Source: Betaproteobacteria bacterium RIFCSPLOWO2_02_FULL_67_26 (GTDB lineage Bacteria > Pseudomonadota > Gammaproteobacteria > Burkholderiales > SG8-41). Taken from it: a DNA stretch of 51,183 nucleotides. Location: positions 1-51,183 of the forward strand of contig MERD01000083.1 in the NCBI GenBank assembly GCA_001771935.1, given 5' to 3'. Within the stretch, counting starts at the first letter, position 1. Each line of letters starts with the position of its first letter. The notes under the pieces were generated by a model. The model was given only the letters and a program-made list of their open reading frames with translations, was not told where the DNA came from and made no database searches. This document shows positions 15,123-26,671 of the stretch, in pieces. The position numbers and the translations under genes are program-made.

Positions 15123-15524
15123 ATGTCGAAGAACCAGTTCATCAATCCACCGGGCCTGCCGCGTCCCGGCACCTACACACCCGTCGTCGCGACGAGCGGC
15201 GGCCGGACCATTTACGTCTCGGGCCAGGTGCCGGTGAACGAGAAGGGCGAGTTGGTGGGCAAGGGCAATCTCGCGGCGCAGGCGGAGCAGGTCTTCCACA
15301 ACATCGACGCGGCGCTGAAGGGCGCCGGCGCGACATTCGCGGACGTCGTGAAGATCACCACGTTCATCGTCGGCTACAAGCCGGAGCACCGCGCGCTGAT
15401 GCACCAGGTGCGGTCGCGCTACGTGTCGAAGGACAACCCGCCGGCGAGCACGCTGCTGGGCGTGCAGTCCCTCGCTATTGCGGACTACCTGATCGAGGTC
15501 GAGGCGGTGGCCGTGGCGGACTAG
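15123..15524 (+). CDS. RidA/YjgF family protein lacking the catalytic Arg
   Basis: A 133-residue trimer-type RidA-fold protein, starting at ATG 15123 behind AAAGGAGG. Family features include IYVSGQVPVNEKGELVG, VFHNIDAALKGAGATFADVVK and the closing YLIEVEAVA. In enamine/imine deaminases a conserved Arg sits in the PAR-S/T-x-V segment; here it reads PPASTLLGV, so that Arg is absent. It is therefore likely to belong to one of the Rid subgroups without canonical deaminase activity. It converges on the response-regulator gene with a 4-base overlap of the stops. Confidence 0.88.
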   Translation: MSKNQFINPPGLPRPGTYTPVVATSGGRTIYVSGQVPVNEKGELVGKGNLAAQAEQVFHNIDAALKGAGATFADVVKITTFIVGYKPEHRALMHQVRSRYVSKDNPPASTLLGVQSLAIADYLIEVEAVAVAD

Positions 15525-16306
15525 AGGCCGAGTATCGCCTTCACGCTTTCCACCACCGCCTCGGGCCTGAACGGCTTGCTCATGTAGCCGCTCGCGCCGT
15601 AGGCGAGCGCCGCCACCACGTCGTCGCGATCGACCGTGGCCGTCATGACGACGATCGGCACCGTCTTGAAGGTCGGGTGATCGCGAAGCCGGCCGAGCAG
15701 CTCGAGACCGCCGACGTCGGGCAGCGCCACGTCGAGGGCGATGGCGTCGGGCGGCGGCTGCTTGTTCAGTTCGGCGATGATTTCCTCGCGCTTGCCCGCT
15801 GCCCGGGTGTCGAACTTGGCGAGCAGCAGCGCGCGGGTGACGACGAGCGCGTGGGAGTCGTCGGCTTCGATGACGAGGATGGTGTGCTTGTCGCCTCCGG
15901 CGTGCGGCGCGATGCGCTTGGCGGGCCGGTTGATGATGTTGACGTGATACCCCGCCTTCTTGGAAGGGCGGATGCCGGCGATCGTCATTTCCGCGTTGCG
16001 CTTCTGCTGGAGCGTCGGTTCCTTGACCGGGCGGTTGATGAAGCGCGTGAAATCGAGGTCGTTGTCCGCGGGGGCGGCTGCCGGCGCCGGCGCGGCGATG
16101 CGCTGGAGGTAGCCGTCGGCGACCAGCCGGTCGATGGCGGCCCGGATTTTTTCCGCCGGCGCCTGCGGCAGCTTGATCTCGAGGTAAGCGAGCGTGGCCT
16201 TGTCCCCGACCATCCCGAGCAGCGTCTTCAGCCCGGTCGTGAGCTTGCCCGGCTTGGCCGCGAATTCGGCCTTGCCTTTCGGCGTCTGGCTGAAGGTGTC
16301 CGTCAT
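15521..16306 (-). CDS. Response regulator with N-terminal winged-helix-like module
   Basis: A protein of about 261 residues. The C-terminal part (from about residue 140) is a receiver domain: TILVIEADDS acidic pocket, phospho-acceptor Asp in ALDVALPDVGG, Thr in VVMTAT and Lys in YMSKPFRPE, all present. The first 80 residues (TPKGKAEF ... LVADGYLQR) look like a small winged-helix-type module, followed by a Pro/Ala linker and NDLDFT. The same module and linker occur at the start of the coiled-coil/AsmA protein at 25565. No histidine kinase is adjacent. I chose ATG 16306 over a TTG two codons upstream. Confidence 0.83.
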   Translation of the reverse strand: MTDTFSQTPKGKAEFAAKPGKLTTGLKTLLGMVGDKATLAYLEIKLPQAPAEKIRAAIDRLVADGYLQRIAAPAPAAAPADNDLDFTRFINRPVKEPTLQQKRNAEMTIAGIRPSKKAGYHVNIINRPAKRIAPHAGGDKHTILVIEADDSHALVVTRALLLAKFDTRAAGKREEIIAELNKQPPPDAIALDVALPDVGGLELLGRLRDHPTFKTVPIVVMTATVDRDDVVAALAYGASGYMSKPFRPEAVVESVKAILGL

Positions 16307-17635: not shown

Positions 17636-18470
17636 GAACCCGGATTTTCTCTCGCGTTCGCCGATGTTCGATCCGTTGCGGGTACACGCGCCTGCGGCAT
17701 TCGGCGACGATTGGCCGTCTCCCGCGGATCTGCAGCGGCTGCTTGAGCAGCGCGGGCCGCGGGTGAGGAACGCGTCCGGGACGCCGTTGCGTCTCGTGGC
17801 GCAGGGGCGCCGGCCGCGGACCCTCGAGGAGCGCTACGAGGCGCGCATGTTCCTGCGGGGAGAATTGCAGGTGCGGGAACGCAACTGGCACGACCTGCTC
17901 AACGTGCTGGTGTGGCTGGCGTTTCCGCGCGCCAAGGCCGCGCTCAACGCGCGGCATTACGCGGCGCTGGCCGCGCAGCGCGCGGCACGCGCGCCGAATC
18001 GCGGGCCGGCGCAGGACGCGCTGACGCTGTTCGACGAGGGCGGCGTGATCGTGACGTCGGGCGACGACGAGCTGATCGACTGCCTGCGCGGCTGGCGCTG
18101 GAAGGAGCTGTTCTGGGCCCGGCGCGCCCGGCTGCCGGCGCGCATGCGTTTCCATCTCTTCGGCCACGCGCTCTACGAGAAGGCGCTGCAACCCTTCATC
18201 GGCATCACCGGCCGCGGCATCGTGATCAAGGCCGGGGCGGGCCTGCCGGGCGCGCCGCTGGCGGAGCAGCTTGCCGTCCTGGACGCGGCGCTCGCGGCCC
18301 ATTTGTCCGATCCGGCCACGCTCGCCGCGACCCGCGAGCTGGAGGTTGTGCCGGTGCTGGGCGTGCCGGGGTGGTGCCGGGACAACGAACGGGAAGCGTA
18401 TTACGACAACACGGACTACTTCCGCCCGGCCCGGACACGCGGGGATGAGGTCACGCCGAAAACATCGTAG
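17619..18470 (+). CDS. DUF3025 family protein
   Basis: A protein of about 283 residues with the features of DUF3025: WNPDFLSRSPMFDPLR at the start, YEARMFLRGELQVRERNWHDLLNVLVWLAFPRAKAALNARH in the middle and GHALYEKALQPFIGITG later. The function is unknown; it appears soluble, without a signal peptide. Since WNPDFLSRSP looks family-conserved, the start must be upstream of it and therefore lies inside the heptamer tract, at ATG 17619 or GTG 17622. Its end overlaps the end of the convergent diguanylate cyclase gene by 20 bases. Confidence 0.82.
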   Translation: MVSSEWNPDFLSRSPMFDPLRVHAPAAFGDDWPSPADLQRLLEQRGPRVRNASGTPLRLVAQGRRPRTLEERYEARMFLRGELQVRERNWHDLLNVLVWLAFPRAKAALNARHYAALAAQRAARAPNRGPAQDALTLFDEGGVIVTSGDDELIDCLRGWRWKELFWARRARLPARMRFHLFGHALYEKALQPFIGITGRGIVIKAGAGLPGAPLAEQLAVLDAALAAHLSDPATLAATRELEVVPVLGVPGWCRDNEREAYYDNTDYFRPARTRGDEVTPKTS

Positions 18471-19506
18471 TGCGGTTCTTTCCCCCCGCCTTGCTCGCGT
18501 ACATCGCCTGGTCGGCCTTGTCGAGGATGGCCTCGAGATCCGCGCCGTGAGTGGGATAACAGGCAACGCCGATGCTGAGCGTCGCCTCCACCGTCTTCCC
18601 GCGCGTCGAGAGCGGGGCGGACTCCATGCTCTTGCGGATGCGGTCCGCCACGCCGACCGCGCCGCTGCAGGGGGTTTCCGGCAGCAGCACCACGAATTCG
18701 TCTCCGCCGTAGCGCGCGATGAGGTCGGTCTGGCGCAGCTGTCCCCGGATGCACTCCACGGTGAGCTTGAGCAGCCGGTTGCCGGTCTCGTGGCCATGAT
18801 TGTCGTTGACCGTCTTCAGGCTGTCCGAATCGACCATGAGCACGCTGAAGGGGCGGGCATAGCGCTCGGCCTGGAAGAACACCCGCTCCGCCACCGCGGC
18901 AAACGCGCGCATGTTGAGGACCCCGGTCAACTCGTCGGTTTCGGAGAGCACCTTCATGTGGCCGTAGGCGCGGCGGATGTCGGCGGACAGCATGGTGGTG
19001 ATGTAGGCGACGAGCAGCATCGGCGAGATTTGCGCGAGCAGCCGGGCGCCGAAAGGCAGCGACAGCACATCCTCGTGCTTCTGCGGGTAGCCGAGCCAGA
19101 TGTAGCAGACCGCGATGAGGCCCATCTCGAGCAGCGTCGCAATCTTGCCCAGGGTCAGGGCGCTGACGATGATCACCAGGATGTAGAGGTCGCTGAGCGG
19201 GCTGTCGGCGCCCCCGGTGTACGCCAGCACCCAGGTGATGAAAGCAATCATCACCCAGGTCTCGAGCGCGATCTTCCAGTGGGTTTCCTGGCGGTAAAAA
19301 TTGGCGTAGTGGAAGGACAGCACGAACGCGGCGAAAAAGAGCAATGCCATGGACAGCGCCGCGGTCACCTCGTCATCCGGCGCGAGCACCACCTGGTAGA
19401 GCATGACCAGGATCAGCAGCAGCCACTCGATTTCCGCCACCGTGCGCGTGAACCCGCGCAGCTCTTCCGAGCTCAGGGCGGGATCGAAGATCAGGTGGGG
19501 CTGCAT
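18451..19506 (-). CDS. Membrane diguanylate cyclase (GGDEF), paralogue 1
   Basis: A 351-residue protein. About six hydrophobic helices (residues 28-173) form a membrane sensor, followed by a GGDEF domain beginning SETDELTGVLNMRAF. The active site GGDEF is at 267-271. RQTD at 258-261, five residues before it, is an intact inhibitory (I) site for cyclic di-GMP feedback. It would make cyclic di-GMP at the inner membrane. It is the second of two tandem paralogues, starting 46 bases after the first stops. Both share a EELRGFTRTVAEIEWLL-like N-terminus, which points to local duplication. Confidence 0.93.
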   Translation of the reverse strand: MQPHLIFDPALSSEELRGFTRTVAEIEWLLLILVMLYQVVLAPDDEVTAALSMALLFFAAFVLSFHYANFYRQETHWKIALETWVMIAFITWVLAYTGGADSPLSDLYILVIIVSALTLGKIATLLEMGLIAVCYIWLGYPQKHEDVLSLPFGARLLAQISPMLLVAYITTMLSADIRRAYGHMKVLSETDELTGVLNMRAFAAVAERVFFQAERYARPFSVLMVDSDSLKTVNDNHGHETGNRLLKLTVECIRGQLRQTDLIARYGGDEFVVLLPETPCSGAVGVADRIRKSMESAPLSTRGKTVEATLSIGVACYPTHGADLEAILDKADQAMYASKAGGKNRTTMFSA

Positions 19507-19552
19507 CGAGCGGGGTCCGTGAGCGCCGTCTCAGGGCAGGAGCATAGCAAGT

Positions 19553-20677
19553 CTACGCGTCCTCCGAGAATACCGTCACGCGGTTCCGGCCCTGCAGCTT
19601 GCTGGCATACAGCGCACGGTCGGCGTTCTTGGCGAGCATCTCGAAGCTTGCCCCGTGCTCGGGATAAGCGGCGACGCCCACGCTGACCGAAGTCGGGATC
19701 GCGCCGCCGAGCGGGGTGCCGGCGATGTGGCCGCGGATGCGTTCCGCGGCCTCGGCGGCGGCGTCGGACCCGGTCTCGGGCAGCAGGCAGACGAATTCGT
19801 CGCCCCCGTAGCGGGCGATGACATCGGTCGCGCGCAGGTCGTGCTTGACGCAGGCCACGATGAGCTTGATCAGACGGTCGCCGGCATCGTGCCCGTGGTT
19901 GTCGTTCACCTTCTTCAGGTTGTCGGAATCGATCATCAGCAGGCTGAAGACGCGGTTATAGCGCGCCGCGAGCGCGCACTCTCGCACGGCGATGGCGTTG
20001 AACGCGCGCATGTTGTAGACGCCGGTCAACCCGTCGGTCTCCGAGATGAGCTTGATCCTTGCCATGGCGTTCAGGATATCCTGCGACAGCATGGTGGTGA
20101 TGTAGGCGACGAGCAGCATGGGCGCGAGGTCCGCCGCGAAATTGCCGGCCGTGATGATCGAGAGGAACGAGGCGTCCGTCGTGTAGCCGAGGAACAGGTA
20201 GCAGGCGGCGATCAGCCCCACCTGCAGCAACGTCACCATCTGTCCCAGGGTGAGGGCGCTGGTGACGATCGGCAGCAGGTAGAGATTGAGCAGCGGGCTG
20301 TCGAGCCGCCCGGTGTAGTAGAGCACCCAGGTGATGAACACGATCATGATCCAGGTCTCGATGGCCAGCATCCAGCGGCCCGGGTGGCGGATGAAATTGA
20401 AGTAATGAAACCCGATGATGAACGCCGAGAACGCGATCAGCCCGGAATAGATGGCGACGGTGTTGTCCTCGGAGCGGTCCTGGAAGATGTGGTAGAGCAG
20501 GATCAGGATCACCAGCAGCCATTCGATCTCGGCCACCGTGCGCGAGAAGTCCCGCAGCTCGGTGGACTCGAGCTCGGCGTCGCCGGCCGGGCGGGCGCCG
20601 GTCCCGTCCAAGGGGGCGGACGCGCCGGGTGGGCGCGGTGGCGTCGGGGTCGTTACGGTTTCCAATCTCGCGGTCAT
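19553..20677 (-). CDS. Membrane diguanylate cyclase (GGDEF), paralogue 2
   Basis: A 374-residue protein colinear with its neighbour: LRDFSRTVAEIEWLL at residues 41-55, about six membrane helices (55-195), then SETDGLTGVYNMRAF and GGDEF at 291-295 with an RATD I-site at 282-285. A Pro/Ala-rich extension of about 38 residues (TPTPPRPPGAS) precedes the shared part and is absent from the other copy. I chose ATG 20677; an upstream ATG at 20764 would place the start inside the divergent gene. It would synthesise cyclic di-GMP. Confidence 0.93.
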   Translation of the reverse strand: MTARLETVTTPTPPRPPGASAPLDGTGARPAGDAELESTELRDFSRTVAEIEWLLVILILLYHIFQDRSEDNTVAIYSGLIAFSAFIIGFHYFNFIRHPGRWMLAIETWIMIVFITWVLYYTGRLDSPLLNLYLLPIVTSALTLGQMVTLLQVGLIAACYLFLGYTTDASFLSIITAGNFAADLAPMLLVAYITTMLSQDILNAMARIKLISETDGLTGVYNMRAFNAIAVRECALAARYNRVFSLLMIDSDNLKKVNDNHGHDAGDRLIKLIVACVKHDLRATDVIARYGGDEFVCLLPETGSDAAAEAAERIRGHIAGTPLGGAIPTSVSVGVAAYPEHGASFEMLAKNADRALYASKLQGRNRVTVFSEDA

Positions 20678-22313: not shown

Positions 22314-25300
22314 TCAGGGCTTGAGCACGGGGGTCTTGAGATTGCCCCCGATGGCGAGCGTGCCGCGCGCCACGACGATCGTCTTCGATCCGAGCTCGGC
22401 GCTCACGCGGCCGGACAGATCGCCGGCGGCGTTGACGTCGAAGCTGCCGTTGGCGTTCAACGGCCCGGACGCGAGCTGGACCTGGCGGTAGGCGTAATTC
22501 TTCCCGGAAACCTGGAGCGAGCCGGTAAGGGTGCTGAAAACGGTCTTGCCGCCGCGCATCCCGTCGCGCGACGGGTTCTGGACGGCGCGGACGAGGTCGA
22601 CGTTGTTGAGCGAGCCCCGCTCGATGTTGAACGTCGCCTCCAGTTTCGGCGCCGCGAACAGGTTTTGGAGCCCGGTGCCCTCCAGCGCGAAGACGGCGTT
22701 GGCGGTGAGTTGCCCGGTCGCCGTGAAATCACGGGTAAATGCCGACATCAGCTTCGCGAGATCGGCGTTGGCCACGTTGAAATCGCCCTCCACGCGTATC
22801 GCGTCCGCGCTCCAGCTGGCCCGCGCAGTGCCCTTCACGGGGGCGAACCCGAGCTTGCCCTCGAAGCTGGTAATGTTCGCTTGCTGCGGCTCGAATAGCG
22901 CTTCGAGCGCGAGATCGTCGAATTCCAGCGCGGGGCCGAGCGGCGGCTTCCAGCCGCGCGCTTCCAGGGTGACGCGCAGCGCCTTGTCCTTGGGCGCAAG
23001 TTCGACCTTGACCTTGCCCTCGGTGAGCACCGCGCGCTGCAGCGCACCGTCGGGCCCCAGGGTGACGTCGCCGTCGAACGCAGGCAGGTCCAGGGACTTG
23101 ACCGCCAGCTTGACGGCCCGCAGCTTGAGGCGCCGCACCTGGAGCGGCTGGCCGCCCGCCGCCGGCTTGAGCCAGCCCGGCACCAGCGCAAGGGCGTACT
23201 GGTCGGCGCTCACCGACTTGATCTCGACCTCGTTGAAGCTCTTGCTGGCCCCGAGCAGCGCCATGGGGCCCGCGTTGACGACGATGCTCTCGATCTTGGT
23301 TTCCTGCAGCTTGCCGATGTTTACGCGCTCCAGCGTGAGCTGAGTGCGCAACAGGGAATAGCGCAGGGTGGATATCGAAACCGGCACGCCCAGGCGGTCC
23401 GCCAGGATCTTCTGGGCCCCGCCGATGAAGTTGTTGAGTGGAATCGCTTCGAGCAGCCCGACCACCCCGGCGATCAGCAGGACCAGCGTGATGCCGATCA
23501 CCTTCGGCCAGCTGGTCGGCTGCTTGACCCGAACCGCGACCCCGGCTGAGCGCGAGTCATCCTCGCGCTTCTTCCGGTCCTCCGCCGCCGCCTTGGCGCG
23601 CGCCGCCGCCTCCTGGCGGTAGCGCGCCTCGGCTTCCATCTCGGCCTGCTCGCGCGCCTTGATCTCCTGCTGCACGCGCGCCTTGATCTCGTCCTCCGAC
23701 GAGGCGCGCAGCTGCTGTTCCTGCATGACGCGCGCAACCGCCTCGGCCTTGGCGCGCGCCTCGGCCTGGGCGCGCGCCTGGCGCTCGATTTCCATCTGCG
23801 CGCGCGCCTGCGCGACCGCCTCCTCGGCCTTGCGCGCGATGGCTTCGGCGTCCGCGCGCGCTTTCATCGCGGCCTGGGCGTTGCCGCTGTTCGCCAGCTC
23901 CTGCGCCCTGGCTTCGGCCTCCTCGCGCGCCTTGCGCGCGAGCTCGGTCTGGCGCTCGGCCTCTTCGCGGGCCTTCTTCTCCGACTCGATCCTGGAAGCG
24001 ATCTCAACGGTTGCCCTGGCCTCGGCTTCCTCGCGCGCCTTGCGCTCGGCCTGGATCATGCCCTCGACCTCGGCGCGTGCCTTGGCCTCGGCTTCCACCC
24101 GCGCCTTGGCGAGCGCTTCGTCGCGCGACTTGCGCTCGGCCGCGGCACTGGCTTCGGCTTCCTCGCGGGCCTTGCGCTCGGCCGCGATCCGCGATTCTGC
24201 ATCCTCGCGCGCCTTGCGCTCGATCTCGGACCGGGCCTCGGCTTCATGCCGGGCGCGGTTGGCCTGATCCTGCAGCTCTTTCATCTGCGCCTTGGCGCGC
24301 GTATCCGCCTCCTCGCGCTCCTTGCGCTCCCGCACCTCGCGCGCCTGGCGCTCGATTTCCTCGCGCTGGCGCACCTCGGCTTCGACTTTCGCCTTGCGCT
24401 CGGCTTCGACCCGCGCCTCGGCTTCGACCCGCGCCTTGGCCTTGGCTTCCTCGAGCGCTTTCATGGCGGCTTCCATGCGCGCCTGGGATTCCGCGTCGCC
24501 GCCGCCGCCGCCCGATGCCACCTGCGTGGCGGCTTTCGCTTCGGCCTCGGCCTTGGCCTTCGCGGCTTCCTCCGCCTTGGCGATGGCCTGTGCCACCGCT
24601 TCTTCGGCCGCCTTCGCGCGCGCCTCGGCCTCCTCGCGCGCCTTGCGCTCGGCTTCCTGGTGCGCCTTGATCTCGGCCTCCATCCGGGCGCGCTGCTCGG
24701 CTTCCTGTTTGGCGCGCGCCTCGGCCTGGGCCAGCGCATCCTGCAGCGCTTTCATCTGCGCTTCGACCGCCGTCCGCGCCTTGGTTTCGGCGTCGGCATG
24801 GGCGCGCGCCTCGGTCTCGGCCTTGGCCCGCGCCTCCGCCTCTATCTTGGCCTTGGCCTCGGCTTCGGCCTTGGCCTCGGCGTCGATCCGGGCACGCGCT
24901 TCGGCTTCCGCCCGGGCCTTGGCTTCGGCGTCGGCCCGCGCCTTCGCTTCCATGGCCGCCTTGACCCGCGCTTCGGCCTCTGCCTTCCCCTTGGCATTCG
25001 CCGCCGCCTTGGCCTCCGCCTCGGCCTTGACCCGCGCTTCGGCCGCCGCCTTCGCCGCCGCCTCGGCCTTGACCTTGGCTTCCGTTTCGGCCTTGACCCT
25101 TGCGTCCGCCGCGGCCCGCGCCCGCGCTTCCGCTTCTTGCTTGACTTTGGCTTCGGCCGCCGCGCGCGCTGCCGTAAGCGCCCGGGCCTTCGCCTCGGCC
25201 TCGGCCTTGGCCCGTGCCTCGGCCTCGGCGTTCAGCTTGGTCATTGCCTGGGGGGTGGTGAAATCGAAATCGTCTTCCGTTGCTGCAGGGGCGCCTGCCT

Positions 25301-25565
25301 TTGCCGCGGCGGCGGGCGCTGCCGGCTGCGCGGCTTCCGGAGACGAAAAGACCCGGATGTAGCCGTCGGTGGTCAGCTTCGTGAGTGTTTCATCGAGCGC
25401 CTTGGCGTCCACGCCCGATTTCTTGAGGAGGTCGGCAACGGTGGACTTGCCGTCCACCGCCAGGAACACCTGGCCGCCCGTGCGGTCCAGCTTGGCGGTC
25501 TTGTTCTTGACTTCCAGCACGCCCTTGGGTGTCTTGGAATAGATGGTCTTGGGATGTATGGGCAT
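22314..25565 (-). CDS. Coiled-coil protein with N-terminal winged-helix-like module, one membrane helix and AsmA-like C-terminus
   Basis: A 1083-residue protein. Residues 1-75 (SKTPKGVLEV ... TTDGYIRVF) form a small winged-helix-like module, followed by a Pro/Ala linker and DDFDFT. Residues about 105-670 are a continuous Ala/Glu/Lys/Arg-rich helix with short repeats such as AEARAKAEAE and ERKAREEAEA, broken once by a GGGGG stretch. One membrane helix lies near 687-708 (VIGITLVLLIAGVVGLLEAI). The last 370 residues resemble AsmA/DUF748-type beta-rich repeats, ending SKTIVVARGTLAIGGNLKTP. With this topology the coiled coil is cytoplasmic and the AsmA-like part periplasmic. The head module is shared with the response regulator at 16306. 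It is divergent from the HD phosphohydrolase. The function is unknown; an envelope-spanning structural or lipid-transfer role is a guess. Confidence 0.85.
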   Translation of the reverse strand: MPIHPKTIYSKTPKGVLEVKNKTAKLDRTGGQVFLAVDGKSTVADLLKKSGVDAKALDETLTKLTTDGYIRVFSSPEAAQPAAPAAAAKAGAPAATEDDFDFTTPQAMTKLNAEAEARAKAEAEAKARALTAARAAAEAKVKQEAEARARAAADARVKAETEAKVKAEAAAKAAAEARVKAEAEAKAAANAKGKAEAEARVKAAMEAKARADAEAKARAEAEARARIDAEAKAEAEAKAKIEAEARAKAETEARAHADAETKARTAVEAQMKALQDALAQAEARAKQEAEQRARMEAEIKAHQEAERKAREEAEARAKAAEEAVAQAIAKAEEAAKAKAEAEAKAATQVASGGGGGDAESQARMEAAMKALEEAKAKARVEAEARVEAERKAKVEAEVRQREEIERQAREVRERKEREEADTRAKAQMKELQDQANRARHEAEARSEIERKAREDAESRIAAERKAREEAEASAAAERKSRDEALAKARVEAEAKARAEVEGMIQAERKAREEAEARATVEIASRIESEKKAREEAERQTELARKAREEAEARAQELANSGNAQAAMKARADAEAIARKAEEAVAQARAQMEIERQARAQAEARAKAEAVARVMQEQQLRASSEDEIKARVQQEIKAREQAEMEAEARYRQEAAARAKAAAEDRKKREDDSRSAGVAVRVKQPTSWPKVIGITLVLLIAGVVGLLEAIPLNNFIGGAQKILADRLGVPVSISTLRYSLLRTQLTLERVNIGKLQETKIESIVVNAGPMALLGASKSFNEVEIKSVSADQYALALVPGWLKPAAGGQPLQVRRLKLRAVKLAVKSLDLPAFDGDVTLGPDGALQRAVLTEGKVKVELAPKDKALRVTLEARGWKPPLGPALEFDDLALEALFEPQQANITSFEGKLGFAPVKGTARASWSADAIRVEGDFNVANADLAKLMSAFTRDFTATGQLTANAVFALEGTGLQNLFAAPKLEATFNIERGSLNNVDLVRAVQNPSRDGMRGGKTVFSTLTGSLQVSGKNYAYRQVQLASGPLNANGSFDVNAAGDLSGRVSAELGSKTIVVARGTLAIGGNLKTPVLKP

Positions 25566-25711: not shown

Positions 25712-26671
25712 ATGCACGAACGACGCAACGATTACGACGTCACCAATCGCGTCAACACCACCGACCCGAAGGCGGTATCCGAGGAAGTCTGCCGCATCTA
25801 CCGGGATCTCTACCAGCTCGGCACACCGCGCAATCTCAACCAGGTGTTCACCGACCTGGCGCGGCTCTACCGCGGCGAGAACCCCGGTTATTGCGAGTGC
25901 GACACGGATTATCACGATGTCCAGCACGTGCTGGACGTGACGCTCGGCATGGCGCGCCTGATGGATGGCTGCGTGCGGGCAACCAGCTCCGAGACCATTA
26001 CCGAGCGGCTGTTCCGGTTCGGGATCATCACCGCGCTCCACCACGACTGCGGCTACATCCGCCACCGCAAGGACACCAAGCATGCGAACGGAGCGGAGTA
26101 CACCGCCGTGCATGTTTCCCGCGGCGCGCGCTTCCTGGAGGAATACCTGCCCACGATCGGCATGGCGGACCTCGCGCAGGCCGCCGCACGCACCGTCCAC
26201 TTCACGGGCTACGAGATCCCGGTGGACAAGATCAGGGTGCCGGGGCCCGAATTCCGGCTGATCGGCAACCTCCTCGGCAGCGCCGACATTCTCGCGCAGA
26301 TGGCCGACCGCTGCTACCTCGAGAAATGCTACGACCGGCTCTATCCGGAGTTCGTGCGCGGCGGCATTGCCCGCAAGCGCCACAAGGACGGCCACGAGGA
26401 GATCATCTTCGCCTCGGCTGCCGACCTGATCTTCAAGACGCCGCGCTTCTACCAGGGCGCGACCAAGCGCCTGAAGCAGGATCTGGGCGGGTGCTACAAC
26501 TACATCGCCGAGCACTTCGGCGGGCAGAACCTGTATTTCGACGAGCTCGAGAAGAACATCAGCCACGCGCGCTCGATCGCCGTCGAAGGCGACATCTCGC
26601 TGCTGCGCCGGCGTCCGCCGAAGCTCACCGAGGGCGCGGAACCCGGGCAGGCGCAGAAGCTGCTGATCTAG
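25712..26671 (+). CDS. HD-domain phosphohydrolase, cyclic-nucleotide phosphodiesterase-like
   Basis: A 319-residue soluble protein. The metal-site residues are in DYHDVQHVLDV (residues 66-76) and ALHHDCGYIRH (109-118), with a later LGSADILAQM that could give the distal Asp. The spacing and flanking residues resemble class I 3',5'-cyclic nucleotide phosphodiesterases (YHNxxHAxDV and HDxxH) more than HD-GYP proteins, since no GYP motif is seen. The predicted activity is hydrolysis of a cyclic nucleotide or other phosphoester; the substrate is unknown. It is divergent from the coiled-coil gene and close to two diguanylate cyclases. Its stop overlaps the stop of the convergent oxidoreductase by 4 bases. 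Confidence 0.78.
   Translation: MHERRNDYDVTNRVNTTDPKAVSEEVCRIYRDLYQLGTPRNLNQVFTDLARLYRGENPGYCECDTDYHDVQHVLDVTLGMARLMDGCVRATSSETITERLFRFGIITALHHDCGYIRHRKDTKHANGAEYTAVHVSRGARFLEEYLPTIGMADLAQAAARTVHFTGYEIPVDKIRVPGPEFRLIGNLLGSADILAQMADRCYLEKCYDRLYPEFVRGGIARKRHKDGHEEIIFASAADLIFKTPRFYQGATKRLKQDLGGCYNYIAEHFGGQNLYFDELEKNISHARSIAVEGDISLLRRRPPKLTEGAEPGQAQKLLI

Follow-up and report, generated by a model that had tools for sequence, protein, structure and literature searches.

A bacterial AsmA-superfamily protein preceded by a winged-helix-like head and a long predicted single alpha-helix

The gene described here occupies positions 22314..25565 on the minus strand of the window, the whole stretch of 51,183 nucleotides that was analysed (contig MERD01000083.1 of Betaproteobacteria bacterium RIFCSPLOWO2_02_FULL_67_26). 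From an ATG at 25565 a frame of 1083 codons runs to 22314 without an internal stop, and the start codon is consistent with the N-termini of homologues, which read M-(A)-(M/I)-H-P-x-T. All of the parts that a first-pass annotation had assigned to this open reading frame are present: a head, about 560 residues rich in Ala, Glu, Lys and Arg, one membrane helix and an AsmA-type C-terminus. Base composition is strongly skewed across 23500-25250, corresponding to the helical stretch, and the plus-strand open reading frames across 22314-25565 are shadow frames. When 60 related genomes were searched with the last 415 residues of the protein, a full-length homologue was identified in about 34, nearly always as one open frame of roughly 800-1677 residues; these relatives cover most of the same family's genomes and also many in other families of the order, and the same search found an additional shorter copy of about 450-500 residues in relatives and in this genome. 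More than 30 related genomes hold the gene intact in a single frame, which excludes the joining of two genes by a frameshift, a pitfall that the first-pass annotation had named as possible; the 1083-residue protein is a real and widely conserved bacterial membrane protein. No match to the gene was found in the plasmid collection searched.

Within the family, gene order around the 1083-residue gene is kept to varying degrees, running from a quinone-type oxidoreductase gene through a divergent HD-type gene and the gene itself to a convergent HtpX gene and, beyond HtpX, to one or more GGDEF genes, a DUF3025 gene, an FAD oxidoreductase gene and a response regulator gene that bears the same head. 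By our own count HtpX adjoins the gene in 21 of 27 same-family (f1) loci, and the conservation beside HtpX and the HD-type gene that had been proposed for checking was thus found at this level. Outside the family the order is largely lost, with no shared operon among the neighbours in distant families, so that the gene is probably transcribed as a unit of its own and the synteny around it is mostly a matter of kinship. The divergent neighbour (25712-26668, plus strand) is conserved and HD-like by eye, its label being taken over from the earlier annotation, and it gave no Pfam match at 1e-5. Two tandem membrane GGDEF proteins are encoded at 18451-20677 on the minus strand, where relatives have one or two, and are apparently a duplicated diguanylate cyclase.

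The C-terminal domain (residues 712-1083; 22317..23432, minus strand) comprises about 20 predicted strands in 372 residues, a length that is nearly invariant in the family (385-399 residues when counted from the start of the transmembrane helix). Pfam AsmA (PF05170) matches 36 of 41 aligned members with a best E-value of 1.1e-15, other Pfam matches among members being DUF748, YhdP and T2SSN, and the NCBIfam AsmA and GspN models match 14 and 11 of 24 members, respectively. The AsmA/DUF748 assignment expected at the outset thus stands for the family, whereas the window sequence by itself remains below threshold (DUF748, E 0.007; NCBIfam AsmA, E 0.004); a single-sequence search of the PDB with this C-terminus likewise returned no match. 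As a profile, the domain matches TamB among PDB entries (E 5.4e-6) and, in a one-target search, the AsmA protein encoded by the same genome (E 3.6e-9); genome contigs were scanned with a profile from a 24-row alignment. In the AF2 model (pLDDT 83) the transmembrane helix is accompanied by one further helix and some 20 strands, with the membrane-proximal third only moderately confident. Foldseek matched the model below E 0.001 to one structure, the N-terminal fragment of Vps13 (6cbc, E 8.6e-5), at low TM-scores of 0.14/0.19. AsmA-like proteins have been compared with Vps13 and Atg2 (PMC8593681, PMC10900882), relative to which the present groove is bacterial and far shorter.

By profile and predicted fold, the C-terminal domain is a member of the AsmA superfamily. 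As in AsmA, YicH, YhdP, TamB, YdbH and PA2708, a single N-in transmembrane anchor is followed by a periplasmic, beta-rich groove. At 372 residues this groove falls short of the approximately 900-1250 residues of the periplasm-spanning YhdP/TamB/YdbH type, a property shared with the short AsmA-type protein PA2708 of P. aeruginosa, which cannot span the periplasm (PMC10900882). In contrast to the described members, which begin with the transmembrane helix, some 690 cytoplasmic residues come first here. The protein is of the AsmA superfamily by domain, but no description of a cytoplasmic head and strut such as these was found in the literature, as covered by open papers, and a search combining AsmA, coiled coil and winged helix returned no paper. 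The genome also encodes a 446-residue AsmA-like paralogue of the C-terminal domain without head or strut (L049, C98:3689-4906), and a paralogue of this kind is present in many relatives. In a tree, the root split that bears on a single origin of all strut-bearing C-terminal domains apart from the strut-less paralogue is weak (66/29).

The single transmembrane helix (residues 690-711; 23433..23498, minus strand) has a 19-residue Kyte-Doolittle mean of 2.52 and is helical in the AF2 model, and neither a signal peptide nor another hydrophobic segment was found ahead of it. In 34 of 35 homologues the part before this helix has more Lys and Arg than the part that follows. By the positive-inside rule, this excess and the lack of a signal peptide point to an N-in orientation in which the head and strut would be cytoplasmic and the AsmA part periplasmic. 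Such an arrangement agrees with the cytoplasmic placement of the helix in the first-pass annotation and with the topology implied by its "cytoplasm-to-envelope linker", the cytoplasmic connection of which would be a putative binding partner of the head.

Most of the cytoplasmic portion is a long charged helix, here termed the strut, at about residues 110-670 (23556..25238, minus strand). Its sequence has no proline, opposite charges are enriched at i/i+4 spacing (z 19.5), like charges are depleted (z -8.1), the charge period is 7.6 and the heptad score is z 2.8. This pattern extends to all 35 homologous struts analysed, in which opposite charges at i/i+4 are enriched at z 6.2 to 26.6 (median 18.0) and like charges depleted at z -3 to -15 (median -7.7); the extreme is the strut of L038, a nearly pure E/R helix with a period of 8.0. 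Heptad scores for the 35 struts lie close to those of shuffled sequences, ranging from z -1.5 to 3.0 with a median of 1.3 (-1.1 when Ala is counted) versus 7.9 (15.7 with Ala) for a tropomyosin control. Hydrophobic residues make up about 10% of the strut, with no 3.5-residue periodicity found. A heptad coiled coil is thus rejected and, because opposite charges are enriched at i/i+4 with no heptad signal, the "coiled coil" of the earlier annotation gives way to a predicted salt-bridged single alpha-helix (SAH), the class characterized by this i/i+4 pattern (PMC5347031, PMC5812594). The strut shares with SAH (ER/K) domains their salt-bridge pattern, few hydrophobics and lack of heptads, but it is known by prediction, is Ala-rich and far exceeds in length the designed SAHs of 98 residues and the 128-Å helix of CAF-1 (PMC5347031, PMC10335832). 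A true coiled-coil scaffold, in which the helix would dimerise or form filaments and so organise AsmA molecules at a site in the cell, is unlikely: the missing heptad periodicity, with Ala included or not, and the scarcity of hydrophobics speak against it, and in its favour are the potential of an Ala-rich helix to pack as an Ala-coil and the polar enrichment of the AsmA-family proteins YhdP, TamB and YdbH in E. coli (PMC12977461).

A long Ala/Glu/Lys-rich helix is also a feature shared with domain II of TolA, and the NCBIfam TolA model matches the present helix at E 1.5e-11, below its cut-off. This match covers the low-complexity helix only, and membership of the TolA family was rejected on that basis. 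A TolA-like force transducer is barely credible, as domain II of TolA is periplasmic and follows the transmembrane helix (PMC12204202) whereas the strut precedes it on the predicted cytoplasmic side, and the C-terminus is AsmA-like with no TolA C-terminal domain.

Among homologues the strut can be as short as 285 or as long as 1128 residues, with the head and C-terminus constant in size. An alpha-helix rises 0.15 nm per residue, at which fully helical struts would reach about 43-169 nm, and the one in the window about 84 nm. Two short interruptions recur at similar positions: SGGGGGD at residues 351-357 (24495..24515, minus strand), with a break at residues 334-366 in most close homologues and a consensus among them of SVGGD, and NSGN at residues 559-562 (23880..23891, minus strand), about 130 residues before the transmembrane helix, with equivalents 128 to 149 residues ahead of that helix in at least 14 homologues. 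Struts free of any interruption occur in several members, and in a few homologues proline-rich patches take the place of continuous helix. Fourfold variation in length, imperfect tandem repeats in the DNA of the strut and a relative entirely without one (L143, described below) would all fit a low-complexity stretch that has expanded without a function of its own between two domains that have one, but we regard this explanation as distinctly improbable considering that the i/i+4 charge order is kept across differing compositions (Ala 10-35%), that the break positions are conserved and that nearly all members have a strut.

The head (residues 1-75; 25341..25565, minus strand) carries KTxKG and VDGKST motifs, and the features common to 33 aligned heads are KTxKG, a VDGKS(T) turn and a C-terminal DGYI(K/R)VF. 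Its AF2 model (pLDDT 82) has a winged-helix-like arrangement without the second wing strand. Profile searches assigned the head to no Pfam or NCBIfam family and gave weak winged-helix matches only, the best being the regulators Lrp, MarR and TrmB, with PqqD in 4 of 33 heads. The head thus falls in the fold class of the PqqD/RRE and MarR/Lrp winged helices, from which it is distinguished by sub-threshold similarity and by its own KTxKG and VDG motifs. Behind an Ala/Pro-rich linker downstream of the head lies the motif D(L/F)DFT (consensus DLDFT), represented here by DFDFT at residues 99-103 (25257..25271, minus strand) and found in nearly all full-length homologues as well as in several head-bearing response regulators.

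A winged-helix fold with such regulators as its top profile matches could indicate a transcription factor anchored in the membrane after the manner of ToxR or CadC, with a DNA-binding head at the end of a long tether and an AsmA domain that acts as envelope sensor; the basic N-terminal stretch of the head (net +3 to +5) makes nucleic-acid binding conceivable. However, the basic recognition helix and wing of a DNA-binding winged-helix regulator are missing from the head: the putative recognition helix (helix 3) is acidic in most heads, with a mean net charge of -1.6 and a net positive charge in only 2 of 33, and the model lacks the second wing strand. PqqD-like matches point instead to a peptide-binding fold, and the same head is carried by receiver, PAS and small cytoplasmic proteins, leaving a tethered transcription factor rather unlikely. 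A weak structural match to 7od9, in which the C-terminal domain of CheF from an archaeon was determined together with activated CheY, suggests the hypothesis that the head may bind receiver domains.

Only 6 kb away in the window, a 261-residue response regulator (15521..16306, minus strand) with a Response_reg receiver domain (E 7.5e-20) shares this head, its N-terminal 70 residues and DLDFT motif being homologous to those of the 1083-residue protein (34% identity over 78 residues, E 3e-4 in an own-genome search). Head-bearing response regulators of several relatives also have the DLDFT motif. A functional partnership between the two proteins is possible, on the grounds of homology and partial synteny within one family. 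The head is present in 140 of 300 genomes of the order and, among the matches listed there, lies in frames longer than 700 residues in about 70 cases, an AsmA end not being confirmed for each. Among 229 genomes from the wider class, none outside the order showed a long form. Small, cytoplasmic proteins in other Gammaproteobacteria also bear the head. Further combinations occur in single open reading frames. One of 523 residues (L145, G013:C87) joins the head to a charged helix and PAS-like domains, another of 1106 residues (L144, G023:C170) has the head, a very long Ala/Gln-rich helix and a transmembrane helix without an AsmA domain, and one of about 596 residues (L143, G048:C5) has the head, a Pro-rich linker, a transmembrane helix and an AsmA-like domain without the helical strut. 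Its presence on response regulators, a PAS protein and other carriers makes the head look like a mobile adaptor.

From this anatomy, which is well supported, we infer a function at a probability of about 0.5: the protein would be a membrane-anchored, short AsmA protein in which a cytoplasmic SAH strut holds an adaptor at a distance to position or regulate it. The single-pass inner-membrane protein would expose a short beta-groove of the AsmA/Vps13 type, probably for holding lipids or passing them on at the face of the inner membrane, its roughly 20 strands being too few to cross the periplasm unaided. On the other side, the salt-bridge-stabilised helix of about 560 residues, with its two conserved breaks, would present the winged-helix adaptor far from the membrane if straight. 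The adaptor most likely binds protein rather than DNA, possible partners being the receiver-domain signalling proteins that bear the same head, and on its long stiff arm it may recruit or sense a distant partner and thereby position or switch the AsmA groove. The fixed C-terminal length set against a variable strut is consistent with a positioned AsmA protein, and the polar enrichment of the E. coli AsmA-family proteins makes a positioning role plausible. The position or activity of a lipid-handling protein of the envelope could thus be set from within the cytoplasm, and the Burkholderiales family offers a testable case for the placement or regulation of AsmA-family lipid transporters. More tentatively, and less likely than not, the proteins may form a new class of lipid-handling envelope proteins coupled to signalling, in which cytoplasmic two-component systems place or switch the transfer of lipids in the periplasm through an adaptor shared with response regulators and an SAH-set reach of tens to more than a hundred nanometres. 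The strut is in itself an unusually long predicted bacterial single alpha-helix, for which homologues provide natural length variants.

Seven metagenome-assembled genome (MAG) records that share this betaproteobacterial locus (L102, L104, L110, L116, L118, L120 and L122) are titled Bordetella parapertussis or Chitinophaga pinensis, species titles that look wrong.
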